Assembly (NCBI RefSeq): GCF_006974125.1
Contig: NZ_CP037858.1
Coordinates: 1,364,001 to 1,428,000 of the forward strand
From: Stenotrophomonas maltophilia
GTDB taxonomy: Bacteria > Pseudomonadota > Gammaproteobacteria > Xanthomonadales > Xanthomonadaceae
Direction: 5' to 3'
Length of the DNA: 64,000 nt
Part shown: piece by piece, positions 14,876-54,781 of the stretch
How positions within the stretch are numbered: the stretch's first letter is position 1
How the letters are laid out: every line of letters begins with the position of its first letter
Program-made: the position numbers and the translations under genes
The notes under the pieces: generated by a model
Database searches by the model: none
The model's input: the letters and a program-made list of their open reading frames with translations, nothing else
What the model was told of the DNA's origin: nothing

Positions 14876-15069
14876 CCCGGGCCTGCGGCCCGGGACCCGC
14901 TGCAAGGCTGGAGCAACGTCAAAATCAACGTCAACAGCAGCGGTCAGGATGCTGGGCTTGGCGGGGCGGTGTCGGGCGGCGGGGACGCCGCAAGTACGTC
15001 CCTGTAGGCTTAGCCGCGGCATCCATGCCGCGGATACCCCGCCACCCGACACCGCCCCACCTCCGACAG
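14876..15069 (+). repeat. Paired-arm intergenic element A
   Basis: Starts with a hairpin at 14876-14894 (8-bp stem, TGC loop), then a CAAC-rich linker, arm 14960-14984, a 52-nt cap (14985-15036) and arm 15037-15061, which pairs at 23 of 25 positions. Tail TCCGACAG lies at 15062-15069. The cap holds two hairpins with TCCC or TCCA apices, the second being CCGCGGCATCCATGCCGCGG. It lies 3' of tonB and faces element B tail to tail. Together with B and the palindromes it fills the 494-base gap between tonB and tsaB, where no gene is visible. Confidence 0.8.
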
Positions 15070-15096
15070 ATCGCGGCGCATCATCGCTTTTGGTAG

Positions 15097-15138
15097 GTGT
15101 CGACCTTGGTCGACACACATCCACGCCACGCGTGGATG
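15097..15138. repeat. Two short palindromes between elements A and B
   Basis: GTGTCGACCTTGGTCGACAC at 15097-15116 is followed at 15118-15138 by a perfect palindrome (ATCCACGCC/CGTGGAT type). The same pair recurs at 54830-54873 beside element G. The second is a variant of the SMAG/GTAG repeat. Confidence 0.75.
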
Positions 15139-15208
15139 CGAGCGAAGCGACCCGCTTTTGACTTTGAATTTTCTTTTCTTGATTTTCCGTGGCGGACGCA
15201 CACGGAAA

Positions 15209-15320
15209 CTGTCAGAGGCCGGGCGGGTGGGCTGCGCAGGGGCGTGAGCCGCATGGATGCGGCGACCGAGCTTACATGGACGTACTTGCAGCGCCCCCTG
15301 CGCAGCCCACCCGCCCGGCC
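15209..15320 (-). repeat. Paired-arm intergenic element B
   Basis: Arms at 15217-15242 and 15295-15320 are perfectly complementary over 26 bp. The 52-nt cap (15243-15294), read on the minus strand, is identical at 51 of 52 positions to the cap of element G, 39 kb away, although the arms differ. The tail TCTGACAG (minus strand) is at 15209-15216. The next 50 bases run into the 3' end of tsaB; the last part, up to about 15372, is also found beside element D. Confidence 0.85.
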
Positions 15321-15359
15321 AAACCACGGCTTGTGCTTTCGCCCTCCGCCACGAGGGGC

Positions 15360-16073
15360 TCAGCCGTTGGCCTTCGCCTTCGCCTCGCGCGCGGCCTGCT
15401 GCTCGGCCAGGGTCAGTGCCACGTTGTCACGCAGGTACGCCGGCTCGACCTTCTCCGGTGCAATGGCTTCGCCGCGAGCGAACGCCGGCACCGCCAGTGC
15501 CAGTACATCCGATGCCCGCGGCAGCGCCGTCGCATCAAAGCCGCGCAGGCCGTTGCCCAGCTGGGCCACCAGTGCCCCCTCTGCTGCACCGAAACCGGTG
15601 CCGACACCGTAGGCCGACATCCCTCCCGGCAGCGCAACCGCAGCGGGTGCGCACACGCGTTCGGCATCACGAGCCACCGGCAGGCCGTCCACACGCTCGA
15701 AGCGCGCGACATACAGCTCGCCCATCCGTGCATCGATCGCCGACAGGATCTGCGTTTCTTCTGCCGGTGCCCGCAGCGCCAGCACCTGCAGCGTCGAGAC
15801 CGGCAACAGCGGGCGGTCCAGAGCCAGTGCGATGCCCTGGGCAATGGCGATCGCCAGGCGCACGCCAGTGAACGCACCGGGGCCGCGGCTGAGCGCAATG
15901 CCGTCCAGCTGGCGGCGGCTGATGCCGGCGTCGGCCAGCAGCGCCTCGGCCCACGGCAGGCTCAGTTCGGCATGCCGGCGCGGGGCGATCTCGAAGCGTT
16001 CCAGCACCTGCCCATCGACATGCAGGGCAACGGAACAGGCTTCGGTGGCGGTTTCAAAGGCGAGCAGTTTCAT
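15360..16073 (-). CDS. tsaB: tRNA threonylcarbamoyladenosine biosynthesis protein TsaB
   Basis: A 237-residue ASKHA-fold protein that partners TsaD/TsaE in making t6A37 on ANN-decoding tRNAs. Hallmarks are the start MKLLAFETATEACSVAL, the SRGPGAFTGVRLAIAIAQGI segment and LLPVSTLQVLAL. The last codons (NG-stop) fall in a 22-base sequence that is repeated next to element D, so the repeat reaches into the end of this gene. It lies 9 bases downstream of the YoaA-like helicase gene, as in E. coli (yoaA-tsaB). Confidence 0.94.
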   Translation of the reverse strand: MKLLAFETATEACSVALHVDGQVLERFEIAPRRHAELSLPWAEALLADAGISRRQLDGIALSRGPGAFTGVRLAIAIAQGIALALDRPLLPVSTLQVLALRAPAEETQILSAIDARMGELYVARFERVDGLPVARDAERVCAPAAVALPGGMSAYGVGTGFGAAEGALVAQLGNGLRGFDATALPRASDVLALAVPAFARGEAIAPEKVEPAYLRDNVALTLAEQQAAREAKAKANG

Positions 16074-16082
16074 CGGATCGGG

Positions 16083-18131
16083 TCAGAACAGGGGGAACGT
16101 GGCACCGGGCGCCGGCTCGGGGCCGGTCGCAACAGCGGCCGGGGCAGCCGCATCATCGGCCACGGGCGCCCATTGTGGCGTAAAGAAGGCCTGCACATCG
16201 GCCAGGCTGCGGGTACGGCGGAACGGCGGCAGTGAATCGAGGAAGACCCGACCATAGCCACGGTTGAGCAGGCGCGGGTCGCACAACACCAACACACCAC
16301 GGTCGCTCTCGCTGCGGATCAGGCGGCCGACGCCCTGTTTCAGCGCAATCACCGCCTGCGGCAGCTGCTCATCGCGAAACGGATTGCCGCCTTGGCTGCG
16401 GATCGCCTCCAGCCGTGCCTCGTACACCGGATCGTCCGGTGCCGCGAACGGCAGTTTGTCGATCATCACCACGCTCAGCGCCTCACCCACCACGTCCACG
16501 CCCTCGCGGAAACTGGCCGACCCCAGCAGCACGCCATTGCCCGATTCGCGGAAGCGCTGCAGCAGCGTCGCGCGCGGCGCCTCGCCCTGCACGAACAACG
16601 GCCATGGCCCATCACGCAGTGCCTCGGCGGCCTCGCGCAATGCACGGTGCGAGGCGAACAACAGGAATGCCCTGCCGTGCGAGGCCTGCAACACCGGCCG
16701 CAGGGTCTGGATCAGCGCAGTGCCGAAGCCACGTGCGGCCGGATCGGGCAGGCCTTCGGGCAGGTAGCACAGCGCCTGCTCGGGCCAATTGAATGGACTC
16801 GGCTGGACCAGCGTATGCGGGTCGTCCAGGCCCAGGCGGGTGGCGATGTGGTCGAAGCCACCGCCCACGGTCAGTGTCGCCGAGGTGAAGATCCATGCCG
16901 CGCGACTGCGCTCGCGATGCTCACGCAACGGGCCAGAGACATCCATCGGCGTGCGCTGGCAGCGGAAACCACGTGGCGTGAGCTCGTACCAGAGCACATC
17001 AGCGGCACTGGCTGTGTCCGCTGGATCGGTATCGAAGTCGAGCGTGGGCTCATCATCGCCCAGCCAGCGGCTGAGTCGCGAGACAGCCTCGCGCGCGCGC
17101 GCGTGGCAGGCATCCAGGCCCGCTGCCGCTTCGCGCAGCGGCTGCAGTGCCCGCTCCAGGGTCACCAACCCCGCCATCACCGTATCGAATCCGTCGCGCA
17201 CCTGTGGCATCGCCAGCGCGCGCCATTGCGTGCCACGCGACGGCAGTCCCTCCATCGCCAAGCGCAGCGCCAACAGCGACTGCTGCAACTGATCGACCGG
17301 TTCCTGCAGCGCCGACTGCGCGCCTCCCACGCCACGCGCTTCGGCCAGGCAGTCGCGGCCCAGTTCCTGCCACGGGCGCATGCCGAAACCTTCGCCGAAG
17401 AACTGCGCGGCCAGCTCGGGCAACTGGTGTGCCTCGTCGATGACGAAGGCCTGGGCCCCCGGCAGCAGTTCACCGAAACCGTCCTGCTTCAGGGCCAGAT
17501 CGGCCAGCAGCAGGTGATGGTTGACCACGACCACATCGGCGGCCTGCGCACGCTGCCGCGCACGCACCACGAAGCAGTCATCCCAGAACGGGCAGTCGGT
17601 ACCCAGGCAGTTGTCGACGGTGGAGGTGACCATCGGCAGCAGCGGCGAATCATCGGCCACGCCTTCCAGTTCGGCGATGTCACCGAACTCGGAACGACCG
17701 GACCAGGCCAGGATGCGCTGGAACTGCGCCGCCTGTTCAGGGCTGGAGAACCGCGGCTCGCCCCGCGCCTGCTGCAGGCGATAACGGCACAGGTAGTTCG
17801 CGCGTCCCTTCAGCAGCGCACTGCGCAGGCCGACACCGAGCGCCTGGCGCACGCGCGGCAGGTCACGGTGGTAGAGCTGGTCCTGAAGCGCGCGGGTACC
17901 GGTGGAAATGATGGTGCGCAACCCGGACAGCAGCACCGGCACCAGATAGGCGAAGGTCTTGCCGGTGCCGGTACCGGCCTCGGCCAGCAGCAGATCGCGC
18001 TGCTGCATCGCGTCGGCGATGGCTTCGGTCAGGCGCAGCTGGGCCGGGCGCGGGACGAAGGCGTCCAGATGCGAGGCGAGCGCGCCGCCGTCGCTGAGGG
18101 CTTCGCGGCTGGCATGGACAAGGTCGGACAT
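16083..18131 (-). CDS. yoaA: XPD/DinG-family ATP-dependent DNA helicase (YoaA-like)
   Basis: A 682-residue superfamily 2 iron-sulfur helicase. Walker A is AEAGTGTGKTFAYL and the DEAH box is FVIDEAHQLPE. Four cysteines of an Fe-S domain are seen (YLCRYRL, then CLGTDCPFWDDC). C-terminal motifs include LLGSASFREGVD and QGVGRLIRSESDRG. The start at 18131 (MSDLVHAS) is chosen; the longer frame adds 25 hydrophobic residues that read through a repeat element. Neighbourhood with tsaB favours YoaA over DinG. The role is likely DNA repair or processing of damaged replication intermediates. Confidence 0.9.
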   Translation of the reverse strand: MSDLVHASREALSDGGALASHLDAFVPRPAQLRLTEAIADAMQQRDLLLAEAGTGTGKTFAYLVPVLLSGLRTIISTGTRALQDQLYHRDLPRVRQALGVGLRSALLKGRANYLCRYRLQQARGEPRFSSPEQAAQFQRILAWSGRSEFGDIAELEGVADDSPLLPMVTSTVDNCLGTDCPFWDDCFVVRARQRAQAADVVVVNHHLLLADLALKQDGFGELLPGAQAFVIDEAHQLPELAAQFFGEGFGMRPWQELGRDCLAEARGVGGAQSALQEPVDQLQQSLLALRLAMEGLPSRGTQWRALAMPQVRDGFDTVMAGLVTLERALQPLREAAAGLDACHARAREAVSRLSRWLGDDEPTLDFDTDPADTASAADVLWYELTPRGFRCQRTPMDVSGPLREHRERSRAAWIFTSATLTVGGGFDHIATRLGLDDPHTLVQPSPFNWPEQALCYLPEGLPDPAARGFGTALIQTLRPVLQASHGRAFLLFASHRALREAAEALRDGPWPLFVQGEAPRATLLQRFRESGNGVLLGSASFREGVDVVGEALSVVMIDKLPFAAPDDPVYEARLEAIRSQGGNPFRDEQLPQAVIALKQGVGRLIRSESDRGVLVLCDPRLLNRGYGRVFLDSLPPFRRTRSLADVQAFFTPQWAPVADDAAAPAAVATGPEPAPGATFPLF

Positions 18132-18150
18132 CAGAGGGAAAGGATACCCG

Positions 18151-18353
18151 GCCGGGCGCTGCCCGGCACCCGTTTCAAGCCAGAGCACCAGCAAAAGCAA
18201 CGGCAACAGCTTGGTTCATGGCTCTGGGTTTCTACGTGCTGGGCGGGTCGGGAGGGGCAGGCAGGACACGCCGTAAACCCATCCCTGGGGGCTCGATGGC
18301 GCCATCCATGGCGCCAACGGTCCTGCCTGCCCCTCCCGACCCGCCTTCGACAG
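18151..18353 (+). repeat. Paired-arm intergenic element C
   Basis: Hairpin at 18151-18167 (GCCGGGC, GCT loop, GCCCGGC), a CAAC/AAAGC-rich linker, then arms at 18242-18266 and 18321-18345 that are perfectly complementary over 25 bp. The 54-nt cap holds CCCATCCCTGGG and GGCGCCATCCATGGCGCC. Tail TTCGACAG is at 18346-18353. The element lies just upstream of the yoaA start and faces element D. Confidence 0.85.
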
Positions 18354-18380
18354 TTTCCCGGTGACGGAGGGACGCGCTCC

Positions 18381-18406
18381 GTAGCGTCGAGCCTGCTCGA
18401 CTGGCA
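18381..18406. repeat. SMAG (GTAG) palindrome
   Basis: GTAGCGTCGAGCCTGCTCGA, a GTAG-led palindrome, sits in the 166-base spacer between the tails of elements C and D. Confidence 0.7.
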
Positions 18407-18519
18407 GCTCAGAAGCTGTGGCAGGAACGGGAAAAGAAGATGGACTACTGCGAGCGCGCGCAGCGCGCGACCCGCTTTTGATTTTCTTTTTCTTTTCCGT
18501 GGCTGGCCGCACACGGAAA

Positions 18520-18631
18520 TTGTCAGAGGTCGGGCGGGGTGGGTTCGCGGGGGTGTCCGCGGCATGGATGCCGCGGCCAAGCCCCCATGGATGGGTTCAC
18601 GGCGTCCCCCGCGAACCCACCCCGCCCGGCC
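18520..18631 (-). repeat. Paired-arm intergenic element D
   Basis: Arms at 18528-18553 and 18606-18631 pair at 25 of 26 positions with one G-T wobble. The 52-nt cap (18554-18605), read on the minus strand, holds CCCATCCATGGG and CCGCGGCATCCATGCCGCGG, both with TCCA apices. The tail reads TCTGACAA (minus strand, 18520-18527). Flanks on both sides are similar to those of element B, including a T-rich stretch and a CCGTGG/CACACGG hairpin at about 18466-18520. The gap 18132-18697 holds no gene, only elements C and D and a palindrome. Confidence 0.85.
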
Positions 18632-18697
18632 AAGCGCGGCTTTTGCTTCACGCGGCCAAACAGCCAGCCACGAGGGGCTGCGCCGTTGGCAGGAAAC

Positions 18698-19234
18698 CTA
18701 GTACCGCTTGATCCCAGGCACCGTGCAGCCTTCCAGCTGCGCATGCGCCGACACCGCATTCTCCTTCTCGCCCCGCGCCAGGCGCGACTGCTCGATCGTC
18801 GCCCAGTGCCGGCGGCACAGCGGCCCTGTCTTCGAGCCCAGGTCGACCGCCTTGCGTGCGAACGTCTCCGCCTGCGCCCACTGCCCCTGCAGCAGCGCCA
18901 GCTCGGCACGCTCCTGCAGCACCGCCGGATCACCAGCGACGATCTCCAGCGCATGGTCCAGGCTGCTGGCGGCACCGGCCAGATCGTTGGCCTGGCGTTG
19001 CGCCAGCGCGGTCACCCGCAGGTCTTCCACCTGCGAATCACGCAGCGGCTGCACCGACAGCTCCTTGTCGTCAGGACCTGCGGCCGCATCCACCGCCGCC
19101 AGGCGCTGTGCCGGCGTAGTGGTGTCGACCGGTTTGATCACCGGCGGTGCACTGCTCACGCAGGCGGCCAGGGCCAGGCTGAGGCCGGTCAGGGCCAGGG
19201 GCTGCAGCAGGGATCGCATGTTCATCGGCATCAT
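18698..19234 (-). CDS. Putative lipoprotein with TPR-like repeats
   Basis: 178 residues. A lipoprotein signal (LTGLSLALAAC, Cys at about residue 25) suggests membrane anchoring. After an unstructured stretch, residues 75-175 are Ala-rich helices resembling one or two tetratricopeptide repeats (NDLAGAASSLDHALEIV, GQWAQAETFARKAVDLG). The start overlaps the mrcB stop (ATGA); ATG codons at 19234, 19231, 19225 and 19219 are all possible. Position after PBP1b suggests a cell-envelope accessory role, by analogy with lipoprotein activators, but sequence alone does not prove this. Confidence 0.75.
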   Translation of the reverse strand: MMPMNMRSLLQPLALTGLSLALAACVSSAPPVIKPVDTTTPAQRLAAVDAAAGPDDKELSVQPLRDSQVEDLRVTALAQRQANDLAGAASSLDHALEIVAGDPAVLQERAELALLQGQWAQAETFARKAVDLGSKTGPLCRRHWATIEQSRLARGEKENAVSAHAQLEGCTVPGIKRY

Positions 19235-21669
19235 CGGCTCGGGGGAGGAGTGGCGGCGGGCGCCGCAGCAGGTTCGGCAGGCGGTTCCGGCTTGCGGTCC
19301 AGGCCGAACCAGCTGCGCCAGCCACCACCCTCGCCTTCAGCCTCGCCCTGCCCGTCCGGCGACACCGCCGGCGCACACGGAGCATAGGCCGGCGCATAGC
19401 CGACCACGAACGGGAAGCGGCGCGCTCCCGGGCAGCCCTCATCAGTCGTGTTGAGGCCGGTGGCGGCCACCGACTGCCAATCCAGGCCCTTGTTGCTGAC
19501 CCGCAGCGGCGCACTGGGAAGGCGCTGGAAGATGCCCGACCAGACCCGCATCGCGCCGGTGGCACCGTACAGGCCGGCCTGCTCGTTCTGGTCGTTGCCG
19601 ATCCAGATCACCGCCAGGTGATCACCCGTGTAACCGGCATACCAGCTGTCGCGACCATCGTTGGTGGTACCGGTCTTGCCGGCGGGCTGCAGGCGGCCCA
19701 GGCCATCGGCGTTCAAGCGCTGCGCGGTGCCGCTGGCAACCACCTGCTGCAGGCCGACACTGATCAGGTTGGCGGCAATCGAGTCGCCCTCCTGCGCCGG
19801 TGCCGGGGTCTTGTCGTAACGTTTGAGCAGCTTGCCCTGCGGATCGAGCACGCCACGCACCGCGTGCAGCGGCTGGATCTCGCCACCGGACGCCAGGAAC
19901 TGGTACAGCTGCGCCATCGCGTACGGGCTCTGGTCGGTCGAGCCGAGGATCACTGCAGGGTTGGCCTCTGCCTTGATGCCGGCCAGCACATGGATCAGCT
20001 GGGTCACGCGCTCGGGACCGACCTGCATGCCCACGCGCACCGTGGCCTGGTTGTAGGAATGCGCCAACGCATCGATCAGGCGCACCGTACCGTGGCTGCG
20101 GTTGTCCGCGTTGCCGGGGTTCCAGTTGCGGCCGCGGCCGAGCTGCACGGTCACCGGTGAATCATCGACCCAGCTGGCCAGCGAGTAACGATCCGGCTGC
20201 GCCAGCGCCAGCAGGTAGACGAACGGCTTCAGCAGCGAGCCGACCGGGCGCTGTGCTTCGATCGCGCGGTTGAAGCCGACTTCGGAAACCTCGCGGCTGC
20301 CGATCACCGCCAGCACGTCACCGTTGTGCACGTCGGTCAGCACCATGCCGGCCTGCAGTTCGGGACGGCGCTTGCTTTCCAGCGACTTGATGGTGCGGGT
20401 CACCGCGCCTTCGGCATAGGCCTGCGCGGACGGCGACATGCCGGTCATCACGCTCAGGCCGGCGCCCTGCAGCGCCGATTCCGGATAGTCATGGCCGAGC
20501 TGGCGGCGAACCAGGTCCACATAGGCCGGGAAGCGGTTGGCTGCCACCAGGCCCGGCGTCTTGGGCACGCCCAGCGGCGCCTTCAGCGCGCGCTGGTACT
20601 CGGCATCGTCGATCAGCGTCGCCTCGTGCAGCTTGCCCAGTACGAAATTGCGGCGATCCAGCGCGCGTTCCGGGTTGCGCCGCGGGTCGTAGAAGGACGG
20701 GCCCTTGACCAGGCCGATCAGCAGCGCGATCTGCTCGGTTTCCAGCGACTGCAGGTCACGGCCGAACCAGAACTCGGCGCCGGAAGACATGCCGTGGATG
20801 GCCTGGCTGCCGCGCTGGCCCAGGTACACCTGGTTGAGATAGGCCTCGAAGATGGTGCGCTTGTCGTAGCGCGCTTCCATGATCAGCGCGTACAGCACTT
20901 CGTTGAACTTGCGGGTGACCGTCTGTTCCTTGCCGATCCCGAGCAGACCGCTGCGGGCCAGCTGCTGGGTCAACGTGGAAGCACCCTGGCGGCTCTGGCC
21001 ACCGGAGCGGATCGTCACCCACACCGCGCGAGCAATGCCGGACAGATCGATGCCGTGGTGACGATTGAAGTCCTTGTCCTCCACCGCCTGCAGGCCGGTC
21101 ACCAGCAGGTCCGGCGCCTCGTCCATGCGGATCAGGCGGCGTTCTTCCTGCTTCTGCCCGTACAGGGTGGCAATACGTGCCGGGTCCAGGCGCGCAGCCT
21201 TCAGCGCCTTGCGGTTGTCGGCGTCACGCAGCGAGGCGACCGCACCGTCGGCCAGCGACAGTTCCAGCCGGCGCGGTGCGACGCGGCCATCCACGTCGTT
21301 GTAGCCACGGCTGGAAATGACGAAACGCCCGCCGTTCACCGCATAGGTGGCCGGCTCCTTGCCCTGCCCGTCATCGCGGTAGGCGGATGCGGCGAGCTCG
21401 GTCTTCAGGGTCGCCGCGTCCATCGCCTTGCCCGGCGTGAGCACCAGCGGGCGTGCGTACACGCGGGTCGGAATCTGCCAGCGAAGTTCGCCGAAGCGCT
21501 GGGTCACCTGTTGGTTCAGGTACAGCGTATAAGGGATCAGGAAGCCCAATCCCAACGCGACCGCAGCCATGCTCCAGGTGATCAGGCGACGCCGCCACAG
21601 CGGGCTGTCGTCCTGCTGGTCGTCGTCGTCGAAATCGTCGATGTCGTCGGAATCGTAGCGTCGGGGCAC
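19231..21669 (-). CDS. mrcB: Penicillin-binding protein 1b (bifunctional glycosyltransferase/transpeptidase)
   Basis: 812 residues. An acidic cytoplasmic tail (DDIDDFDDDDQQDD) precedes one TM helix (about 29-50). A UB2H-like region is followed by the family 51 glycosyltransferase with catalytic Glu in AVEDKDFNRHHGID and the GASTLTQQLARS motif. The transpeptidase has SxxK in VGSLLKPF (about 472), SYN in AHSYNQATV and KTGTTND (about 663). The C-terminal 60 residues are Pro/Ala/Gly-rich. It polymerises and crosslinks peptidoglycan at the inner membrane. The Tol-associated CpoB encoded at 48 kb is a known PBP1b regulator in E. coli. Confidence 0.95.
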   Translation of the reverse strand: MPRRYDSDDIDDFDDDDQQDDSPLWRRRLITWSMAAVALGLGFLIPYTLYLNQQVTQRFGELRWQIPTRVYARPLVLTPGKAMDAATLKTELAASAYRDDGQGKEPATYAVNGGRFVISSRGYNDVDGRVAPRRLELSLADGAVASLRDADNRKALKAARLDPARIATLYGQKQEERRLIRMDEAPDLLVTGLQAVEDKDFNRHHGIDLSGIARAVWVTIRSGGQSRQGASTLTQQLARSGLLGIGKEQTVTRKFNEVLYALIMEARYDKRTIFEAYLNQVYLGQRGSQAIHGMSSGAEFWFGRDLQSLETEQIALLIGLVKGPSFYDPRRNPERALDRRNFVLGKLHEATLIDDAEYQRALKAPLGVPKTPGLVAANRFPAYVDLVRRQLGHDYPESALQGAGLSVMTGMSPSAQAYAEGAVTRTIKSLESKRRPELQAGMVLTDVHNGDVLAVIGSREVSEVGFNRAIEAQRPVGSLLKPFVYLLALAQPDRYSLASWVDDSPVTVQLGRGRNWNPGNADNRSHGTVRLIDALAHSYNQATVRVGMQVGPERVTQLIHVLAGIKAEANPAVILGSTDQSPYAMAQLYQFLASGGEIQPLHAVRGVLDPQGKLLKRYDKTPAPAQEGDSIAANLISVGLQQVVASGTAQRLNADGLGRLQPAGKTGTTNDGRDSWYAGYTGDHLAVIWIGNDQNEQAGLYGATGAMRVWSGIFQRLPSAPLRVSNKGLDWQSVAATGLNTTDEGCPGARRFPFVVGYAPAYAPCAPAVSPDGQGEAEGEGGGWRSWFGLDRKPEPPAEPAAAPAATPPPSR

Positions 21670-21753
21670 GGGGATGCAGGCAGGTAGGGTCTGGCGAGTC
21701 TAACGCAGGCGCCGCGGTGGCTGGCAGGCGATGGCCCGCGGTTTCACTGCAGT

Positions 21754-33052: not shown

Positions 33053-33068
33053 GGGATGGGGGTGTTCG

Positions 33069-33340
33069 GCAGGGCTGCGCCCTGCACCCGCAGAGGCCGA
33101 AGCAACAGCAACTGCCAGAGCAAGAGCAAGAGCTGGTTTCCTGTGGGTTGGCGGGGTGGGTCCGATTGCGGGAGACGCCGTAAACCCCGCTCCGCGGTCC
33201 GGCCCAGCCGCTGGCGGCTGTGCGTTCGGGCGCTTGCGAAGCAGTGCTTCGCAAGCAAAGCGCCCTCCCCCTTGGGGGCTTGGCAGCCGCATCCATGCGG
33301 CTGACACTCCCGCAACCGGACCCACCCCGCCCTTAGACAG
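33069..33340 (+). repeat. Paired-arm intergenic element E, with enlarged cap
   Basis: Hairpin at 33069-33085 (GCAGGGC, TGC, GCCCTGC), CAAC/AGCAAGAGC-rich linker, then arms at 33150-33174 and 33307-33331 pairing at 24 of 25. The cap is 132 nt instead of 52: it begins ACGCCGTAAACCC and ends GCCGCATCCATGCGGC like the other caps, but an extra stretch of about 80 bases with its own hairpin (GCGCTTGCGAAGC/GCTTCGCAAGC) is inserted. The tail TTAGACAG is at 33333-33340. It lies 3' of dps and faces element F. Confidence 0.8.
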
Positions 33341-33368: not shown

Positions 33369-33409
33369 GGGGTCGGATCCGTTTTCCTGCGGAAAACGGA
33401 TCCGACCCC
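33369..33409 (+). terminator. Long perfect hairpin with T-rich tail
   Basis: GGGGTCGGATCCGTTTTCC at 33369-33387 pairs perfectly over 19 bp with 33391-33409 across a TGC loop, followed by ATTTTGTTTGT. This is a convincing intrinsic terminator on the plus strand, though 317 bases after dps. Imperfect relatives (GGTCGGATCC type) occur at 63564-63600 and 63649-63687, so it is also a repeated sequence. Confidence 0.75.
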
Positions 33410-33475: not shown

Positions 33476-33654
33476 CTGTCGAAGGCGGGGCGGTGTCGGA
33501 GTGCGGGGTGTCAGCCGCATGGATGCGGCTGCCAAGCCCCCAGGGACGGGTTCACGGCGTCCCCGCACTCCGACACCGCCCCGCCAACCCACGGATAGCC
33601 CGCTTTTGACGTTGACGTTGCCGTTGATTCGGCGGGTGCAGGGCGCAGCCCTGC
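33476..33654 (-). repeat. Paired-arm intergenic element F
   Basis: On the minus strand: hairpin at 33638-33654 (GCAGGGC, TGC, GCCCTGC), linker rich in CAACG, arms at 33561-33585 and 33484-33508 perfectly complementary over 25 bp, a 52-nt cap (33509-33560), and tail TTCGACAG at 33476-33483. The cap holds a CCCGTCCCTGGG-type hairpin and GCCGCATCCATGCGGC. It ends 29 bases before the recQ start. Confidence 0.85.
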
Positions 33655-39542: not shown

Positions 39543-39552
39543 CCGCATCCCT

Positions 39553-39614
39553 GTAGCGTCGAGCCATGCTCGACCATGGCCTGCAACATCCAGTCGAGCG
39601 TGGCTGGACGCTAC
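39553..39614. repeat. Inverted pair of SMAG (GTAG) palindromes
   Basis: GTAGCGTCGAGCCATGCTCG at the left and its mirror ending GGACGCTAC at the right form a long hairpin in the gap between the convergent acetyltransferase and zinc-ribbon genes. Confidence 0.8.
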
Positions 39615-39617
39615 AAA

Positions 39618-43478: not shown

Positions 43479-44047
43479 AACACCTCACCCAGGCGCGGAC
43501 GCCAACACCTCGGTCGTCGCAAATGCACCGACATTTGAGGGCATGACTCGCTGGTCGTGCCACCACTGCAGGCGAAAATCACGCCAACTTTCCACGTGAT
43601 ACATCACGGCATCGTCGCCGCCACCAGCTGTTCTCGACATTTTCCACCGCGGTAAGCCCGGCGCAAGCATGAACACGTCGCGCGCTGTCGCTTGCTGCAT
43701 CAGATGTGCCTGCGCCACCATCGTCGCGCGCCTGGGTACTGCATTTCTCTTCGGAGAATCCTCATTGAAATCCAAGCGCGTGCGTAAACACCATGCAGCG
43801 CCACCGACAACGGGTGGCACCGGGCCTGCAAGCCCGTGATGACTGTAAGCATGTTGTTTGCGCTCACCCGCCGACACTGTCCCTGGACCGTGCCGGCGGG
43901 TGATCCGTCGGCCTTCATGGCGGGCGGTGCGTGGGGGTTTTCGGACCCGCCGGTTAACTGCTTACTGTCATCCCGGCTTGCAGCCACGCATCGCCTGCCA
44001 CCCGTCCTACGCGGTGGCATTCCCACCCCAGCGCCGAGGAAGCCGAC
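43479..44047. other. Region without a recognisable gene
   Basis: About 570 bases with no convincing coding region. A minus-strand frame at 43485-43877 (130 codons, or 78 from an internal Met) has no recognisable domain and no clear ribosome-binding site. The stretch 43650-43800 is less GC-rich than its neighbours. The last 150 bases should hold the promoter of the gene starting at 44048. Confidence 0.4.
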
Positions 44048-44872: not shown

Positions 44873-44948
44873 TGGTGGGCCGTGAAGGATTCGAACCTTC
44901 GACCAAAAGATTAAAAGTCTTCTGCTCTACCGACTGAGCTAACGGCCC
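44873..44948 (-). tRNA. tRNA-Lys (anticodon TTT)
   Basis: A 76-nt cloverleaf on the minus strand: acceptor 5' GGGCCGT pairs with ACGGCCC at the 3' end, followed by A and an encoded CCA. The D arm has AGCTCAGTCGGTAGAGC, the anticodon loop is CTTTTAA with TTT, and the T arm is GGTTCGAATCC. It decodes AAA/AAG. Confidence 0.97.
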
Positions 44949-45012: not shown

Positions 45013-45026
45013 CCCTGGTGCGTCGA

Positions 45027-46179: not shown

Positions 46180-46186
46180 CGTGCAA

Positions 46187-46852: not shown

Positions 46853-46930
46853 GGGTAAAACATCCGGTTGGGAGGGGAAAGCCAGCACGCTGTCCCGCGC
46901 CGGAGTTACATCAGGGAACGTTGCCTGGGC

Positions 46931-47632: not shown

Positions 47633-47689
47633 GGCGGGCACTTCTTGGGGGGACACGTGGCGGGTGGGCTACCGTGGCCGGTAACGAAA

Positions 47690-47778
47690 GCAGCCGAGCA
47701 TGGCACGGCCCTACAACAGCAACCGGACGGGTTTGCCGGTCCGGAAACGAAAGCAGCCGAGCATGGGCTCGGCTCTAC
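47690..47778. repeat. Two SMAG-type palindromes in direct orientation
   Basis: AACGAAAGCAGCCGAGCATG occurs at about 47683 and again at about 47745, each followed by a mirrored end (CACGGCCCTAC; CTCGGCTCTAC). Between them is GGACGGGTTTGCCGGTCC. They separate cpoB from queE. Confidence 0.75.
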
Positions 47779-47808
47779 AGGGCAGCTATTGTACGCCCGG
47801 TCAGCGGA

Positions 47809-48627
47809 TCAGCGGATCTGCTTGCCCAGGCGGATGGACTGCAGCCGGTCCTGGGCGGTGCGCGCGGCGTCCGAGCCCGGGTACTGCGCCACGACGGTCT
47901 CCAGCGTCTGCTGGGCCTGGTCGACCTTGCCCTCGCCATACTGCGAGAGGCCAACCTTGAGCAGGCCGCCAGCGGCCTTGTCGTGGGTCGGATAGCGCGC
48001 GAGCAGTTCACGGAACTGGGTCTCGGCCATCGGGAAATTGCGGGTGGCGTAGTAGCTCTCGCCCAGCCAGTACAGCGCGTTCGGCGCGTAGACGCCGTTC
48101 GGATACAGCTGCAGGAAGCTCAGGAACAGCTGCGCCGAATCATCGTACTTGCCGGCCTTCAGCGAATCGAAGGCAACGTTGTAGGAGGTGCGCTCGTCGC
48201 CGGTGGCGGCAAGGCTGCCGGCATCACCATGGACCGAAGGCGGCCGCTCGGAAGTGGCCGCCGCTGCGGGTTTTGCCGGGGCCGGTGCGGCCTTCGGCGC
48301 GCTCGCCGGAACGGGCGGCAGGGCTGGGGCGGCATTGCCCCCTTCCAACCGGTTCAGGCGGCTGTCCAGATCCAGGTACTGGTCCTGGGCGGACTGCTTG
48401 AGCTGGGCGTTGTCGTGCTGCAACTGCTCGATCGAGGCCTGCAGGCTGGTGACCTGCTGCCGCAGCTGGTTGATCTGGTTCAACAGGTCCTGGTTGGCAC
48501 TGTTGTTGTACATCTGCTGCTCGAGCGCGCCGACACGGTCAGCCAGGCTCTGTCGCTGTGCATGCGCCGGTGCGGCAGCCACGAGGGCTGCCGCAACGAC
48601 CAGCATCAGTTTGATGCCAATGCGCAT
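47809..48627 (-). CDS. cpoB: Cell division coordinator CpoB (YbgF)
   Basis: 272 residues: signal peptide (LVVAAALVAAAPAHA), a coiled-coil trimerisation segment (about 30-95, QLRQQVTSLQASIEQLQ), an Ala/Pro-rich linker, then three TPR units (ERTSYNVAFDSLKAGKYDDS, ALYWLGESYYATRNFPMAE, KVDQAQQTLETVVAQYPGSD). In E. coli CpoB sits in the periplasm and ties PBP1b activity to the Tol-Pal machine. It is encoded 3 bases after pal. Confidence 0.95.
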   Translation of the reverse strand: MRIGIKLMLVVAAALVAAAPAHAQRQSLADRVGALEQQMYNNSANQDLLNQINQLRQQVTSLQASIEQLQHDNAQLKQSAQDQYLDLDSRLNRLEGGNAAPALPPVPASAPKAAPAPAKPAAAATSERPPSVHGDAGSLAATGDERTSYNVAFDSLKAGKYDDSAQLFLSFLQLYPNGVYAPNALYWLGESYYATRNFPMAETQFRELLARYPTHDKAAGGLLKVGLSQYGEGKVDQAQQTLETVVAQYPGSDAARTAQDRLQSIRLGKQIR

Positions 48628-48630
48628 GGA

Positions 48631-49149
48631 TTACTGCGCGGTGTAGACGATTTCGACGCGACGGTTCTGCGACCAGCAGGACTCGTTCGACTCGGTGCAG
48701 ACCGGACGCTCTTCACCGTAGGACACGACGGTCAGCTGCGAAGCCGAGCCACCGTTGGCCTGCAGGGCCGAGTTGACGCCGTTGCCACGACGCTCGCCCA
48801 GGGCCTGGTTGTACGCGCGCGAACCGCGCTCGTCGGTGTGACCCTGCAGGGTGATGCGCGAGGACGGACGGTCACGCAGGTACTTGGCGTGGCAAGCCAT
48901 GATGGCCTGGAATTCCGGCTTCACGTCTTCCTTGTCCAGGTCGAAGTAGACAACGCGCTGGCGCAGGCAAGCGTCGGTGTCCAGGTCGCCCGGGCCGTAC
49001 AGGCCGGAGGTCGACGGACCGGTCGGGGTGGTGGTCGAGGTGCCGGTGTCGACCGGGGCTGCCGGCTCTTCCTTCACCTTCTTCGAGCAACCGGCCAGGA
49101 CGGCCACAGACAGCAGGGAAACAAGCAGAACGCGGGTGGACTTGTTCAT
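48631..49149 (-). CDS. pal: Peptidoglycan-associated lipoprotein Pal
   Basis: 172 residues. The lipobox is LAGC (Cys21), then a Thr/Pro-rich linker and an OmpA-like domain with the peptidoglycan-binding segment LQGHTDERGSRAYNQALGE and RRVEIVY. Pal anchors the outer membrane to the wall and binds TolB. It lies in the tol operon between tolB and cpoB. Confidence 0.97.
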   Translation of the reverse strand: MNKSTRVLLVSLLSVAVLAGCSKKVKEEPAAPVDTGTSTTTPTGPSTSGLYGPGDLDTDACLRQRVVYFDLDKEDVKPEFQAIMACHAKYLRDRPSSRITLQGHTDERGSRAYNQALGERRGNGVNSALQANGGSASQLTVVSYGEERPVCTESNESCWSQNRRVEIVYTAQ

Positions 49150-49213
49150 GGCGATACCTTTGTGGCTCCTAGGCCGATGAGGGGTTCAAGACAACGAAAA
49201 TATTAACACTCTT

Positions 49214-50533
49214 TTAGCGCTGGGTACGGTATGGGGACCATGCCGGTTCGCGCACATCACCATCGGCCAGGACCAGGCGCTGGCGGACCCGCGCATCGGC
49301 CGAGACGGCATACAACACACCACGGCCACCTTCGCGGGCGGCGTACAACACCATGCTTGCGTTGGGCGCAAAGCTCGGCGATTCATCCAGCGAACCCGGG
49401 GACAGCGTGCTCCAGCGCGGCGAACCCAGCGAGCTGTCCATCATCGCGATCTTGTAGCTGTTGCCCGAACCCTGGGCGACGGCGATCTTCTTGCCGTCGT
49501 AGGACACCGAGGGCTTGGCATTGTAGTTGCCCTGGAAGGTCACGCGCTCGGCGCTGCCGCCGCCTGCGCCGACCTTGTAGACCTGCGGACGGCCGCCACG
49601 GTCGGAGGTGAAGTACACCGCGCTGCCGTCCGGCGCCCAGGTCGGCTCGGTATCGATGGCGAAGTGGTTGGTCAGCTGGGTCAGCTGCTTGCTGCCCAGG
49701 TCCATCACGTAGATTTCCGGGTTGCCCGAACGCGACAGGGTCAGGGCCAGCTTGCGGCCGTCCGGCGAAAACGCCGGGGCGCTGTTGATGCCGCGGAAGC
49801 TGGTGACCAGCTCACGCGCGCCGGTGCCGATGTTCTGGATGTAGATGGCCGAATTGCCACGCTCGAAGCTGACGTAGGCCAGCTTGCTGCCATCCGGGCT
49901 CCACGACGGCGACAGCAGCGGCTCGGCCGAACGCACGATGGTCTGCGGGTTGTAGCCGTCGGAGTCGGCCACCATCAGCGCATAGCGCATGGCGTCGCCC
50001 TTGCCGCTGGCGGTCACGTAGGCGATGCGGGTCCAGAAGGCGCCGCGCACACCGGTGATCTTCTCGTAGATGGCGTCGGCCATCTGGTGGGCAACGTCGC
50101 GCATGGCGTTGCCACGGGCGGTCATCGCCAGGCCCAGCAGGCGCTCGCCCTTGGGTACGTCGAACAGTTCGTACTCGACGCGGTAGGCGCCAGCACCGGC
50201 GTCGAGCACGCGGCCGACCACGATGTAGTTCTGCTTCAGCGCACGCCAGGTGGCGAACTGGATGTCACCGCCGCGCACCGGCTTCTCGACGATCTGCGCT
50301 TCGGGCAGCGTGCGGAACTGGCCCGAACGCTCCAGGTCGGCACGGACCACGCCAGCGACGTCGGTCTGCGGTGCAGCCGCCGAACCCTGGTAGGGCATCG
50401 GCACGATGGTGATCGGCAACGCGGAGGCATTGCCGCCGATGATGTCGATATCCAGCCCCTTCTGCTGCGCGACGGCAGCAAAGGGCAGCAACAGGGCCGC
50501 AAACACGGCAAGCCAGCGAGGCATCTTTTTCAT
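49214..50533 (-). CDS. tolB: Tol-Pal system protein TolB
   Basis: 439 residues: signal peptide (WLAVFAALLLPFAAVAQ), an N-terminal domain (IDIIGGNASALPITIVPMPY) and a six-bladed beta-propeller with repeats such as LLSPSWSPDGSKLAYVSF, APAFSPDGRKLALTLS and EPTWAPDGSAVYFTSD. TolB shuttles between Pal and TolA in the periplasm. The start at 50533 (MKKMPRW) is chosen as signal-peptide start; upstream frame is non-coding. A 284-base gap separates it from tolA, so it may have its own promoter. Confidence 0.97.
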   Translation of the reverse strand: MKKMPRWLAVFAALLLPFAAVAQQKGLDIDIIGGNASALPITIVPMPYQGSAAAPQTDVAGVVRADLERSGQFRTLPEAQIVEKPVRGGDIQFATWRALKQNYIVVGRVLDAGAGAYRVEYELFDVPKGERLLGLAMTARGNAMRDVAHQMADAIYEKITGVRGAFWTRIAYVTASGKGDAMRYALMVADSDGYNPQTIVRSAEPLLSPSWSPDGSKLAYVSFERGNSAIYIQNIGTGARELVTSFRGINSAPAFSPDGRKLALTLSRSGNPEIYVMDLGSKQLTQLTNHFAIDTEPTWAPDGSAVYFTSDRGGRPQVYKVGAGGGSAERVTFQGNYNAKPSVSYDGKKIAVAQGSGNSYKIAMMDSSLGSPRWSTLSPGSLDESPSFAPNASMVLYAAREGGRGVLYAVSADARVRQRLVLADGDVREPAWSPYRTQR

Positions 50534-50817
50534 GGAGCGCTCAATAAGGGGGAAACCGGAACGAGGGATAACAAAGCGGAAGTGAACCGCTTCGCAATCA
50601 TGAACCAAGGGTACGTGAATTCCGGGTCAGTTCCAGCCCGTCCTCTCACGCACCGTTAACGTCGTGGCTAACATCGCGCCCGCCTGCCCCGTCACGCCGC
50701 CCTGCGGGGCGGTGTTCGACAGCAGTCCACAGACTGCCCGGCCGGAACCGGGCCCACCAGAGGCAAGCGCGACATCCGTTGGCGTGGGCGGCCTGATGAC
50801 CGCCCTGCCTCGCCCGA

Positions 50818-51859
50818 TCAATCCTGAGCGGTAAAGGTCAGATTGAGCGTGCGGTTGAACACCGACTCGAAGCCCCGGTACGGCAGCGGCTGGGCGTTGA
50901 GCACAGCGGCCTCGATCGAGCGCTTGCCGGCCTCGTCATAGGGGCAATTTGCACCGACCTTGGCCTGCAGCACCTGTCCACCCGGGATCTGGGTGATGGT
51001 CACCTGGCACCTCTGCCCCAGCGGCACGCTGTCCGGGCGGGTCCAGGTATCACGCACCTTGGCCTGGATCGCCGCAACGTACTTGGCAGTCAGATCGTCG
51101 CTGTTGCCACCACCACCGGCAGCCGGTTGGGAGGCACCGCTGGAACCGGCAGCGGCACTGCCGGCGGCATTGCGCGCGGCGGCCACCTGGCGCAGCTTCT
51201 GCTCGGCCAGCTTGGCTTCCTTCTCGGCCTGCTCGCGGCGGGCACGGATCTCGGCGATCTTCTTCTGCTTCTCGGCCTCGGCCTTGTCAGCGGCCACGCG
51301 CTCCTGCTCGGCCTGCTTCTTCTTCTCGTCCGCTTCCTGCTGCTTGGCCAGGCGCAGCTTCTGCTCCGCCTCTTCCTGGCGCTTGCGTTCGGTCAGGTCG
51401 ATCTGCTCCTGGCGGCGCTTGGCTTCCTGTTCCTGCTTGGCCTTCTCCTGCGAGATGGCCAGCGCGCTCACCGCTTCCTGATCCTTGGTGTCCGGCTGCG
51501 CGACGCGCTCCTGCGCCTGTTGCTGCTGCGGCGTGGGGGCGTCCTGCGGGCGCGGCTCGGGGATCGGCTGCGGCGGCGGGATGGTGTCTTCCGGCACCGG
51601 GACCGGCTCGGCCACCGGCGGCGGCAGGTCTTCCAGCTTTTCCGACTGGCGCAGGGCCTGGCGCGCGGCAGAAGCCTCCGACGCAGACAGCGCCAGGCTG
51701 GCCTCGACCGACGGATCACCCGCGGCGGCGTCGGTGTTGCGCTCGGGTGACCAGAACCAGGCCACGATGAAGACCAGCGCGACCAGCAGGTGCACCAGCA
51801 ACGCCAGCGCCAGGGGCAGGCCCCAACCAGGTTCGCGCTGCTGTGGAGGTGGCAGGGCG

Positions 51860-51870
<11 letters not shown>
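50818..51870 (-). CDS. tolA: Tol-Pal system protein TolA
   Basis: 350 residues: one TM helix (about 17-39, LPLALALLVHLLVALVFIV), a Pro-rich stretch, a long charged helix of Glu/Lys/Ala/Gln repeats (about 120-235) and a small C-terminal domain (YVAAIQAKVRDTWTRPDSVP, GQRCQVTITQIPGG). TolA spans the periplasm and connects TolQR to Pal. Its start overlaps the tolR end by 11 bases. Confidence 0.95.
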
Positions 51871-52288
<418 letters not shown>

Positions 52289-52312
52289 GGCTTGGACTCC
52301 CGGGTCAGGCGC

Positions 52313-53092
52313 TTACTCGTCGCCAGCGCTCTGGCGCTGCAGGATGGAGCTGAACTCTTCGGCAAAGGTCTCGAACCGCACCGACATGCGCTCAACGCGG
52401 GTGGTGAAGCGGTTGTAGGCCCACACTGCCGGGATGGCCACGAACAGGCCGATGGCGGTGGCGAACAGCGCTTCGGAGATGCCCGGGGCAACGGCGGCGA
52501 TGCCGGCCTGTGCGCCGCTGCTGATCATGTCGTGCATGGTCACCATGATGCCGAACACGGTGCCGACCAGGCCCACGTACGGGGCGGTCGAGCCGATGTT
52601 GGCCAACAGTTCCAGGTTGCGCTCGAGCTGGTCCACTTCGCGGGTGTAGGTGGTGCGCATGGCACGCTGTGCGCCTTCCAGCTGCGCGCGGCCGTCCAGC
52701 CGGCGCTTGTCGCGCAGGCGGGTGTATTCGCGGAAACCGGCTTCGAAGATGGCTTCCAGGCCGCCGACATTGCGGCTGCGGTCGGTGGCCGAGCTGTACA
52801 GCTTGCCCAGGTCGGCACCGGACCAGAAGCGGTTCTCGAACTCGTCGGCTTCACGGGTGGCCTGCTTGAACACGCGGGCCTTGCGGAAAATGATCACCCA
52901 GCTGACGAACGAGCCGACCAGCAGCAGCAGCACGATGATCTTCACCGGCAGGCTGGCCTTGGCCATCAGCTCGAGGTAGTTGATGCCGCCGCCGGTGGTG
53001 GCCTGGGCAAGGGTCTGGGTCGCGGCGTTGCTGACGTCGGCCGGCAGTGCCTCGGTGACCGTGGCCTGCAGGGCCAGGAGCGTTGCGATCAT
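52313..53092 (-). CDS. tolQ: Tol-Pal system protein TolQ
   Basis: 259 residues of the ExbB/MotA family with three TM helices: KIIVLLLLVGSFVSWVIIF, then YVGLVGTVFGIMVTMHDM and the third around EALFATAIGLFVAIPAVWAY. The conserved GLVGTVFGI and ISEALFATA segments line the proton channel. ATG at 53092 follows GAGGA at 8 bases. The gene lies 10 bases after ybgC. Confidence 0.96.
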   Translation of the reverse strand: MIATLLALQATVTEALPADVSNAATQTLAQATTGGGINYLELMAKASLPVKIIVLLLLVGSFVSWVIIFRKARVFKQATREADEFENRFWSGADLGKLYSSATDRSRNVGGLEAIFEAGFREYTRLRDKRRLDGRAQLEGAQRAMRTTYTREVDQLERNLELLANIGSTAPYVGLVGTVFGIMVTMHDMISSGAQAGIAAVAPGISEALFATAIGLFVAIPAVWAYNRFTTRVERMSVRFETFAEEFSSILQRQSAGDE

Positions 53093-53102
53093 CCGTTGTT
53101 CC

Positions 53103-53534
53103 TCAAAGTTCGGATTCGGGGTGGAGGTGGGGTTGCAGCATGGCAAGGACGGCCTCGTCCATGCCACGCGGGCGGAAACTGGCCGCTTCCAGTGCGGCGA
53201 TGCGGACCTGGGCCGACAGCAGCAGTTCGCCGTCGCGCAGGATCTGCTGCTCGAAGACCATGCTGGCCTTCTTCAGCTGGACCAGGCGGGCGCTCACCTG
53301 CAGGATGTCATCCAGCCGTGCCGGCCTGATGAAATCCATCTGCATCGAGCGCACCGCGAAGATCATGCCGTGCTCGATGCGCATGCGCTCCTGGCCGTAG
53401 CCCAGCGCGCGCATCCATTCGGTCCGGGCCCGTTCCATGAAGGCCACGTACCGGGCGTGGTAGACCACGCCACCGGCATCGGTATCTTCCCAGTAAATGC
53501 GTGTCGGCCAACTGAATCGCGGCTCAACCGACAT
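53103..53534 (-). CDS. ybgC: Acyl-CoA thioesterase YbgC
   Basis: 143 residues of the hot-dog fold. The catalytic region is [16 protein letters not shown] with the conserved Asp, followed by FMERARTEW. The tol-associated thioesterase hydrolyses short acyl-CoA or acyl-ACP and has been linked to phospholipid enzymes. It is the first gene of the tol block and overlaps the ruvB end by 11 bases, so ruvB-ybgC-tolQRA are likely co-transcribed. Confidence 0.94.
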
Positions 53535-54564
53535 CGGGAACCTCGGCGAACAGGTCCTGCGGCGGGTTCTTGGGTTTCAGGCCCATGTGCCGGTAGGCCT
53601 TGTGGGTGGCCATGCGGCCACGCGCGGTGCGCACCAGGAAGCCCTGCTGGATCAGGTAGGGTTCGACCACGTCTTCCAGCGTGCCGCGCTCTTCGGACAG
53701 CGCCGCGGCCAGCGATTCGATGCCGACCGGGCCACCATCGAAGTAGTCCACCATTGTTTTCAGCAGGCGCCGGTCGAGCTCGTCGAAGCCTTCCGGGTCG
53801 ACCTTGAGCATCTTCATCGCAGCCTGGGCCACGGGCTCGTCGATGTGGCCACCGGCCTTGACCTGCGCGTAGTCGCGCACGCGTCGCAGCAGGCGGTTGG
53901 CGATACGCGGCGTACCACGCGCGCGGCGCGCGATCTCCCCTGCCCCATCGGCGGTGCAGTCGATGCCGAGGATGCTGGCGGAGCGGCGCACGATCCGGGT
54001 CAGTTCCTCGACGCTGTAGAACTCCAGGCGCTGGACGATGCCGAAGCGGTCGCGCAGCGGCGCGGTCAGCAGGCCGGCGCGGGTGGTGGCGCCGATCAGG
54101 GTGAACGGCGGCAGGTCGATCTTGATCGAGCGCGCCGCGGGGCCCTCGCCGATCATGATGTCGATCTGGAAGTCTTCCATGGCTGGGTACAGCACTTCCT
54201 CGACCACCGGCGACAGGCGATGGATCTCGTCGATGAACAGCACGTCGTGCGGCTGCAGGTTGGTCAGCAGCGCGGCCAGGTCGCCGGCCTTTTCGATCAC
54301 CGGGCCGGAAGTCACGCGCAGGGCCACGCCCAGTTCGTTGGCAATGACGTGGCTGAGGGTGGTCTTGCCCAGGCCCGGCGGGCCGAAGATCAGCACGTGG
54401 TCGAGCGCGTCGCCACGCCCCTTGGCCGCCTGGATGTAGATTTCCATCTGCTCGCGCACCGGCACCTGGCCGAGGTAATCGGCAAGGCGCTTGGGGCGGA
54501 TGCTGGCGTCGGCGGCGTCATCCTCGCGGGTGGCGCCGGCGCCGATGATGCGGTCGTCGGTCAT
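53524..54564 (-). CDS. ruvB: Holliday junction branch-migration helicase RuvB
   Basis: A 346-residue AAA+ motor. Walker A is [15 protein letters not shown], Walker [13 protein letters not shown], sensor 1 [11 protein letters not shown], sensor 2 [15 protein letters not shown]; a winged-helix C-terminus follows ([17 protein letters not shown]). It drives branch migration with RuvA. ATG at 54564 (MTDDRIIG) is the family start. It is separated from ruvA by kup and about 545 bases of repeats, unlike the contiguous ruvAB of E. coli. Confidence 0.97.
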
Positions 54565-54596
54565 GTGCTGATTATGCGGCAAAAGTACGGGTTTCG

Positions 54597-54781
54597 GCCG
54601 GGCTGCGCCCGGCACCCGCAGAGGCAACGGCAACATCCAGAGCAACAGCCGTAGCGGGCTTCCTGGGGAATGGCGGGGTGGGTCCGGTTGCGGGGGACGC
54701 TGCAAGTACGTCCATGTAAGCTCGGTCGCCGCATCCATGCGGCTCACGCCCCCGCAACCGGACCCACCCCGCCTTCGACAG
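54597..54781 (+). repeat. Paired-arm intergenic element G
   Basis: Hairpin at 54597-54613 (GCCGGGC, TGC, GCCCGGC), linker with GCAACGGCAAC and AGCAACAGC, arms at 54672-54696 and 54749-54773 perfectly complementary over 25 bp, a 52-nt cap (54697-54748) with TACGTCCATGTA and GCCGCATCCATGCGGC, and tail TTCGACAG at 54774-54781. The cap matches that of element B at 51 of 52 positions. It is the only unpaired copy and sits upstream of ruvB. Confidence 0.85.

Follow-up and report, generated by a model that had tools for sequence, protein, structure and literature searches.

The genome of Stenotrophomonas maltophilia examined here carries at least 154 intergenic copies, at 97 sites, of a 102-104 bp palindrome bounded by conserved flanks (TTCGACAG and GTGGG(T/A)T), and we propose, with a probability of about 0.57, that this repeat is selected as an RNA and forms a predicted two-site platform for CsrA/RsmA. 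Its copy number, fold, strand, loop motif and class-wide conservation are documented below, and its loop sequences make CsrA/RsmA the probable ligand. On the strand that displays GGA (the GGA strand, the proposed RNA strand), the predicted fold is a 25-bp stem, variable between copies, that leads through a three-way junction into two short hairpins. Because this RNA fold displays two CsrA/RsmA docking sequences, the elements may constitute a dispersed regulator-binding set rather than junk.

Seven copies, A to G, lie in the window, that is, the whole 64,000-nucleotide stretch analyzed, and all seven lie at the coordinates originally given, with arms of 25-26 bp. Element A (14960..15061, GGA strand −) is placed between convergent genes at 13981-14865 (+) and 15360-16073 (−), head-to-head with B (15217..15320, GGA strand +); C (18242..18345, −) is partnered by D (18528..18631, +) and the long-form E (33150..33331, −) by F (33484..33585, +), while G (54672..54773, −) is unpaired. 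Loop I reads CATGGATG, which fits CANGGANG, in A (15020..15027, −), B (15252..15259, +), C (18303..18310, −), D (18563..18570, +), E (33290..33297, −), F (33518..33525, +) and G (54732..54739, −). Loop II reads CAGGGACG in A (14997..15004, −) and F (33541..33548, +), CATGGACG in B (15275..15282, +) and G (54709..54716, −), CAGGGATG in C (18280..18287, −) and CATGGATG again in D (18586..18593, +). Loop II of E has an extra hairpin module of ~80 nt inside it, and the intact loop I is the sole remaining CANGGANG site of that copy. The cap is 52 nt as described and enlarged in E, and that of C, which had been set apart as longer, is also 52 nt if the C arms are taken as 26 bp. The sequence TYNGACAG, said to follow the arm in every copy, does so in five of them (A, B, C, F and G), whereas in D its place is taken by TCTGACAA and in E it is displaced by a single base.

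A model built from the seven copies, as originally suggested, returned 146 matches in the own genome; the count rose to 154 when the retrieved stretches were rescanned (with weak scores of ~30 bits for two of them, in L073 and L078). Chance or artefact is rejected by these 146 matches and by a covariation score of 0.600, compared with 0.160 in shuffled alignments and at most 0.111 when slid (107 of the 154 copies). This set was restricted to 102- or 104-nt copies, reduced to 114 by removal of duplicates and freed by hand of 7 low-scoring ones, a filter that favours well-paired copies, and hence unfiltered counts are given beside filtered ones. In the 107 copies 22 of 28 pairs vary on both sides and 99.3% of cells are paired; elsewhere in the class (29 copies, 28 other genomes) the corresponding figure is 24 of 28 pairs.

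The two strands are distinguished by their mismatches. On the GGA strand G·U exceeds A·C by 24:1 in the 107 own copies (21 other mismatches besides) and by 117:34 in 151 unfiltered ones (252 other mismatches, many from out-of-register copies). For other genera (90 distinct copies) the ratio is 88:15, or 88:9 minus the loop-closing pair, and it is 13:5 in the 29-copy set (13:1 minus that pair), where the asymmetry is weak at the sequence level (7 vs 3, p 0.17); these cross-genus alignments were fitted to a GGA-strand model and lean to it, while the own-genome set was found with the opposite-strand model. The proposed selection on RNA or cruciform structure is thus strongly supported, by covariation and strand asymmetry, for a folded single strand, with the informative strand being the opposite of the one first described, and we consider it very probable that the GGA strand has been selected as the folded strand. 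On that strand the reported TCCA and TCCC apices become ANGGAN loops, and the arms admit G·U pairs. The arms of A, D and E that had been counted as imperfect (23/25, 25/26 and 24/25) contain four non-Watson-Crick pairs, and as all four are G·U on the GGA strand, all seven window copies are fully paired there, G·U counted.

The claim of covarying arms needs some revision, in that the two sides indeed vary in concert, yet some of the divergence among copies reflects exchange of the whole inner arm and cap as a block, including between copies at one locus, and not paired point changes alone. Such exchange keeps the arms paired without selection, and it favours the view that the element is functionless repeat DNA whose palindromes owe their perfection to templated repair and gene conversion. 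This view is very improbable, since repair should be strand-symmetric and not give the 24:1 and 88:15 excesses of G·U, and would not spare from constraint just the N positions of CANGGANG. Pairing of partner arms with each other is also rejected, as the arms of paired copies resemble each other slightly less than random ones do (0.588 vs 0.619 ± 0.015).

The loops are what suggest the ligand. CANGGANG is the CsrA/RsmA consensus, presented in an ANGGAN hexaloop (PMC6849547, PMC7652899), and one CsrA dimer is described as bridging sites 10-63 nt apart (PMC7652899). The element loops are likewise ANGGAN hexaloops closed by C-G (CANGGANG), and 135 of the 154 own copies have two such sites, always 23 nt apart (start to start), a spacing within the published bridging range of one dimer. 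With 16 copies that have a single site, the genome has ~286 canonical sites; long-form caps disrupt one or both sites in 13/154 copies. A database pattern in which both loops were entered as N gave at least 86 matches, 71 of them outside Stenotrophomonas (from 80 listed of 118 stretches), and ANGGAN occupied both loops in 84 of the 86 listed, with the two N positions free. The junction bases T and A and the TTYAC bulge, whose conservation is similar to that of the loops, are not accounted for by CsrA alone. Of the 69 genomes with elements 64 have csrA, as do 249 of the remaining 300, a co-occurrence of little weight because the gene is common in the class (313/369). One 98% complete draft, G275, has nine element matches and no csrA match, and the four other exceptions are less complete.

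The placement of the elements also has to be explained. Convergent-gene gaps make up 40 of the 97 element sites, compared with 21 of the 233 remaining gene neighbours in those stretches, and for 101 of the 154 copies a gene end lies toward the TCC 5′ side, the stop codon a median of 81 nt upstream, the adjoining gene more often reading the element in the non-GGA orientation, which counts against the platform reading. This placement, and the very stable computed folds, would be expected of a structural 3′-end hairpin that blocks exonucleases or convergent read-through with no dedicated protein ligand. We regard such a role on its own as improbable, since stability requires neither two ANGGAN loops nor class-wide bulge and junction bases, and there is no terminator call at A-D. 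Of the 3′-end or terminator function originally suggested, it is the placement after stop codons that is supported. The one intrinsic terminator called in 14800-18800 is in the A-B gap, and copies A-D, which do not combine a hairpin with a T-run, are rejected as intrinsic terminators.

A model finds the family in at least 69 of 369 genomes, distributed over the gammaproteobacterial class, and such counts are lower bounds because only 11-150 candidates were scored per genome. In the own genome 114 of the 154 copies sit in head-to-head pairs, an arrangement found at 57 of 57 two-copy sites, and at 66 loci outside Stenotrophomonas (80 listed minus 14 Stenotrophomonas loci) neighbouring copies are −+ in 14 cases, +− in five and in the same orientation in none. 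Gene context in the other genera was left out, with crude ORF picking there giving an ORF overlap for 27 of 72 clusters. The alternating orientation, the strict conservation of junction and bulge bases, and the occurrence in S. maltophilia of self-complementary ‘TIR’ repeats associated with a gene of Y1 type (PMC3733652) would all be in keeping with a mobile, non-autonomous element. Its GGA strand would be recognized as ssDNA in the way that an HUH transposase recognizes a REP, the transposase contacting the forked hairpin, the bulge and the loops, and ssDNA likewise tolerates G·T wobble. This origin is nevertheless unlikely. None of 83 Y1/RAYT loci examined (79 in the genus, 60 of 71 further genus loci having been taken among the Y1 matches listed) has an element within ~1.5 kb, the sole listed match there (11 bits, E 0.33) not being credible. 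The proposed search for a RAYT or other transposase with matching ends thus gave none at these loci, a RAYT/TIRYT-carried repeat is rejected, and of the mobile palindrome first envisaged the high copy number is retained and the Y1/RAYT carrier gene is not. Most of the related genomes compared at two sites (best 30 of 61 genomes) have these occupied, and they reveal deletions, not clean insertions; of the A/B orthologues, both L217 and L219 carry an internal deletion, and L226 is a possible empty site with no defined target duplication. Carriage by plasmid or phage is rejected by the lack of any such match to copy G (blastn, E 1e-3). The genes enclosed by two wide pairs, one with a weak DUF4253 match below cut-off and the other a KDPG aldolase, do not encode transposases. 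It would, in addition, take coincidence for an unrelated protein to share CANGGANG down to its free positions.

The elements would be transcribed by read-through from neighbouring genes. Because the members of a pair face each other, read-through from any neighbour would serve, and a transcript entering a head-to-head pair from either side would contain one copy, and no more, in the orientation that binds. If CsrA/RsmA is the ligand, each element RNA could then hold one CsrA/RsmA dimer, and the 154 or more copies might jointly act as a dispersed sink that frees RsmA, and/or protect or tune locally the 3′ ends they occupy. There is no excess of promoters in pair gaps (5.38 observed vs 5.62 shuffled, 55 pairs), and thus nothing to point to a dedicated sRNA gene; own divergent promoters in these gaps, scoring not above shuffles, are rejected, and promoters toward and away from 44 unpaired copies are nearly equal (3.64 vs 3.51). 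We suggest, tentatively, that class-wide the repeated palindromes could be a distributed CsrA/RsmA sponge, with ~286 predicted sites per such genome. If true, this sponge would buffer CsrA in proportion to total transcription, with no specialized sponge RNA gene required, and the elements may persist by exploiting CsrA/RsmA binding. If the platform reading is right, intergenic repeats of Stenotrophomonas, Xanthomonas and many gammaproteobacteria would join the Csr/Rsm regulon, Stenotrophomonas would gain candidate RsmA-sequestering RNAs, and a palindromic repeat would have been shaped by an RNA-binding protein and not a transposase.

The widespread, unexplained Ysr224 (Rfam RF02770), a Yersinia sRNA, would likewise gain a ligand and an opposite working strand. 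It is the nearest named relative, its whole model (1-107) aligning to copy C (E 9.4e-6) with the same two-hairpin order and with the loop and bulge sequences of the element in complement. In the own genome (150 of 1188 candidates scored) 58 of 58 listed matches fall on elements, on the non-GGA (TCC) strand, and all 58 are below the gathering cut-off (best 43.9 vs 70 bits). Ysr224 is annotated on the TCC strand, opposite to the proposed RNA strand of the element, and this likewise counts against the platform reading. It is described as multi-copy and transcribed, with copies that differ in expression in Y. ruckeri, and is ranked among the most prevalent sRNAs; the accounts of it consulted mention several copies but describe no family of intergenic repeats and no CsrA sites. 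The early caveat that the copies might belong to a known repeat family is thereby borne out in part, Ysr224 being a distant relative, and by analogy the small-RNA role first suggested would be in line with this transcribed Yersinia RNA.

CsrB, RsmY, RsmZ and Xanthomonas RsmU also present several GGA hairpin loops of the same consensus, but these are single sRNA loci whereas the element is a dispersed palindrome. RsmU, which is 3′-UTR-derived and binds RsmA (PMC7694677), is rejected as a family member, as comEA has no adjoining element in eight Xanthomonas genomes (0/8 genes; in two, one element is >1 kb away). TwoAYGGAY (RF01731) has two CsrA-like hairpins on a poorly conserved outer stem, and the reverse complement of Bacillaceae-1 (RF01690), a motif of doubtful strand, also has two; they are known from Clostridia and Bacillales/Lactobacillales (PMC4333381), and neither has a match up to E = 10 in 14850-18720 (copies A-D).

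The REPs/SMAGs of Stenotrophomonas resemble the element in being palindromic, intergenic, numerous and arranged in oppositely oriented pairs. They are, however, 20-40 bp palindromes with a GTAG head that flank a RAYT (Y1) gene, whereas the element is 102-104 bp, has no GTAG head and adjoins such a gene at 0/83 loci, and it differs from REPs, SMAGs and TIRs alike in its class-wide conserved cap and the absence of a nearby Y1 gene. The ‘1152’ TIR repeats of S. maltophilia K279a are self-complementary, close together and tied to a Y1-type transposase gene that they flank (PMC3733652), a position the element takes at 0/79 Y1 loci of the genus taken among the matches listed; the element may be linked with these repeats, which were compared by description. 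REP-like hairpins, judged from sequence and to be compared with the REP types tabulated in PMC2817692, are present at ~15092-15137 in the A-B gap (15062..15216, no strand).

All seven palindromes were confirmed in the window at the positions of the original prediction, and further copies occur throughout the single-contig genome (4.55 Mb) from which the window was taken. A model built from the seven copies (R1) gave at least 146 matches in this genome, a lower bound because only 150 of 1769 candidates were scored, and a rescan of the fetched surroundings identified 154 copies, two of them weak, at 97 sites. Forty sites contain one copy and 57 contain two, which are head-to-head in every case, separated by 110-259 nt in 48 of the 49 pairs first listed and by 902 nt in the other. 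According to our own codon-model gene caller, an ordinary gene lies inside each of two wide pairs, and elsewhere no called gene is overlapped by any site. Flanking genes are convergent at 40 of the 97 sites, whereas this holds for 21 of the 233 other pairs of adjacent genes in these regions (Fisher p ~1e-10), and in 101 of the 154 copies a gene end is found towards the 5′ side of the strand that carries TCC in its cap loops (the TCC strand), with a median distance to the stop codon of 81 nt.

The consensus from 107 copies has 28 pairs, of which 22 show changes on both sides, with pairing in 99.3% of cells. The covariation of the paired arms that had been predicted is very strong (score 0.600, versus 0.160 when shuffled and at most 0.111 when slid), but the strand supported by mismatches is the complement of the one on which it was described. 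Inner arms and caps are exchanged whole between copies, so block transfer alone could yield such covariation. The kind of mismatch, on the other hand, separates the strands, because a G·U pair kept on one reads as A·C on the other. The G·U to A·C ratio on the strand with GGA in its cap loops (the GGA strand) is 24:1 in the 107 copies, which contain 21 other mismatches, and 117 to 34 in the unfiltered set of 151, with 252 others; all four imperfect arm pairs in the window copies are also G·U on this strand. Among 90 distinct copies from other genera the ratio is 88:15 (88:9 excluding the loop-closing pair), while 29 copies from another class sample gave 13 G·U and 5 A·C, an asymmetry that is not significant in a per-sequence test, or 13:1 excluding the loop-closing pair.

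On the GGA strand the cap forms a three-way junction with invariant junction bases and two hairpins, I and II, the second of which has a TTYAC bulge. The loop of each hairpin has the sequence C-A-N-G-G-A-N-G. Across 29 copies taken from 28 other genomes, each of the six named letters is conserved in 28 or all 29, and both N positions are variable. To avoid circularity, the GTDB species collection was scanned with a pattern that left all 12 loop positions free. This gave at least 86 matches in the 80 loci listed, 71 of them from outside Stenotrophomonas (including Xanthomonas, Marinobacter, Alteromonas, Methylomonas, Ectothiorhodospira, Microbulbifer and Pantoea), and 84 of these 86 have ANGGAN in both loops. 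Two such sites, always spaced by 23 nt, are present in 135 of the 154 copies in the window's own genome, with one site in 16 and none in three. The Rsm consensus published in PMC6849547 is CANGGANG, and PMC7652899 reviews ANGGAN hexaloops and how sites separated by 10-63 nt are bridged. With this fold, strand, motif, spacing and conservation, the element is proposed to be an RNA platform for CsrA/RsmA. It would be transcribed by read-through from neighbouring genes (no excess of promoters was found in the pair gaps), and the head-to-head layout would place one copy in the GGA orientation in a transcript from either flank, to which CsrA/RsmA may then bind and exert an effect.

Two points argue against such a platform. 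The bulge and junction are conserved though CsrA need not read them, and Rfam assigns Ysr224 to the opposite strand. On its TCC strand the cap can be aligned with the Ysr224 model, at a score below the Rfam cut-off, and all 58 matches listed in the window's own genome are on elements. Ysr224 is described as expressed from several copies in Y. ruckeri (PMC12112432) and as one of the most prevalent sRNAs (PMC9029176). The TIR repeats of S. maltophilia, described as self-complementary in PMC3733652, may or may not be the same family. Text searches of the open-access literature found no published repeat family with CsrA sites.

The chief rival to the CsrA/RsmA platform is a mobile element acting at the level of single-stranded DNA, but the suggested search for a RAYT or transposase partner found a Y1 gene associated with the element at none of 83 Y1 loci. 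Orthologues were compared in the best 30 of 61 genus genomes, own included, where no clean insertion was seen at the sites of window pairs A/B or E/F. A model of the GGA strand (R2) matched two copies at A/B in 18 genomes, one in six and none in six, and two copies at E/F in 22, one in six and none in two. The A/B loci without a match include two short contigs (L204, L223) and two fused remnants (L217, L219); L230 has a long-form copy missed by R2, and L226 lacks the element and retains the hairpin and hexamer repeat upstream of it. Outer arm ends are constant, and inner arms and cap alternate among a few types. Given this occupancy in most orthologues, the stable outer arms and the switching interiors, both sites are old and their interiors have been exchanged between copies.

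R2 matched 69 of 369 genomes (61 of 271 genera) in a class sample and 36 of 398 in a phylum sample, all 36 in this class, although the share of the 398 from outside it is not given. Within the genus the distribution is patchy, with no R1 match in 11 of 49 genomes. Of the 69 element-bearing genomes 64 have csrA, as do 249 of the 300 others (Fisher p 0.04); when the comparison is limited to good genomes, the counts are 56 of 57 and 224 of 257 (p 0.01). This is weak evidence, because csrA occurs in most genomes of either group and the genomes are related to one another.

Two different hairpin modules of ~80 nt enlarge 13 of the 154 caps, among others at window 33150-33331 and at L043, L058, L070, L083, L097, L099, L100, L109, L117 and L121. 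One occupies loop II only (seven copies), the other loop I only (four), and both occur together in L081 and L117; each disrupts the GGA site of its loop. Matches to the module patterns in fetched stretches of the genome were all inside elements (11/11 and 7/7).

Many copies are preceded by a GC-rich hairpin, which ends in ACCCGC, and then an array of CAACGG-like hexamers (for example window 14866-14959 and 33060-33149; L226). This combination seems to be a separate 3′-end feature because it persists in L226 without the element. REP/SMAG-like hairpins are located at 842-907, 15092-15137 and 39552-39615 in the window, and REP-like units are also found within pair gaps. In the gap between E and F, the two 19-bp arms of an inverted repeat match perfectly around a 3-nt loop (33369-33409). 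A C4 antisense RNA (43913-44005; RF01695, 60.6 bits) lies near a tRNA gene (44876-44948), which suggests phage-like DNA. In L286, a stretch of 8 kb, three copies of the Xanthomonas sRNA sX9 (2408-2483, 4208-4283 and 6210-6285) lie near an element; sX9 looks likewise repetitive.
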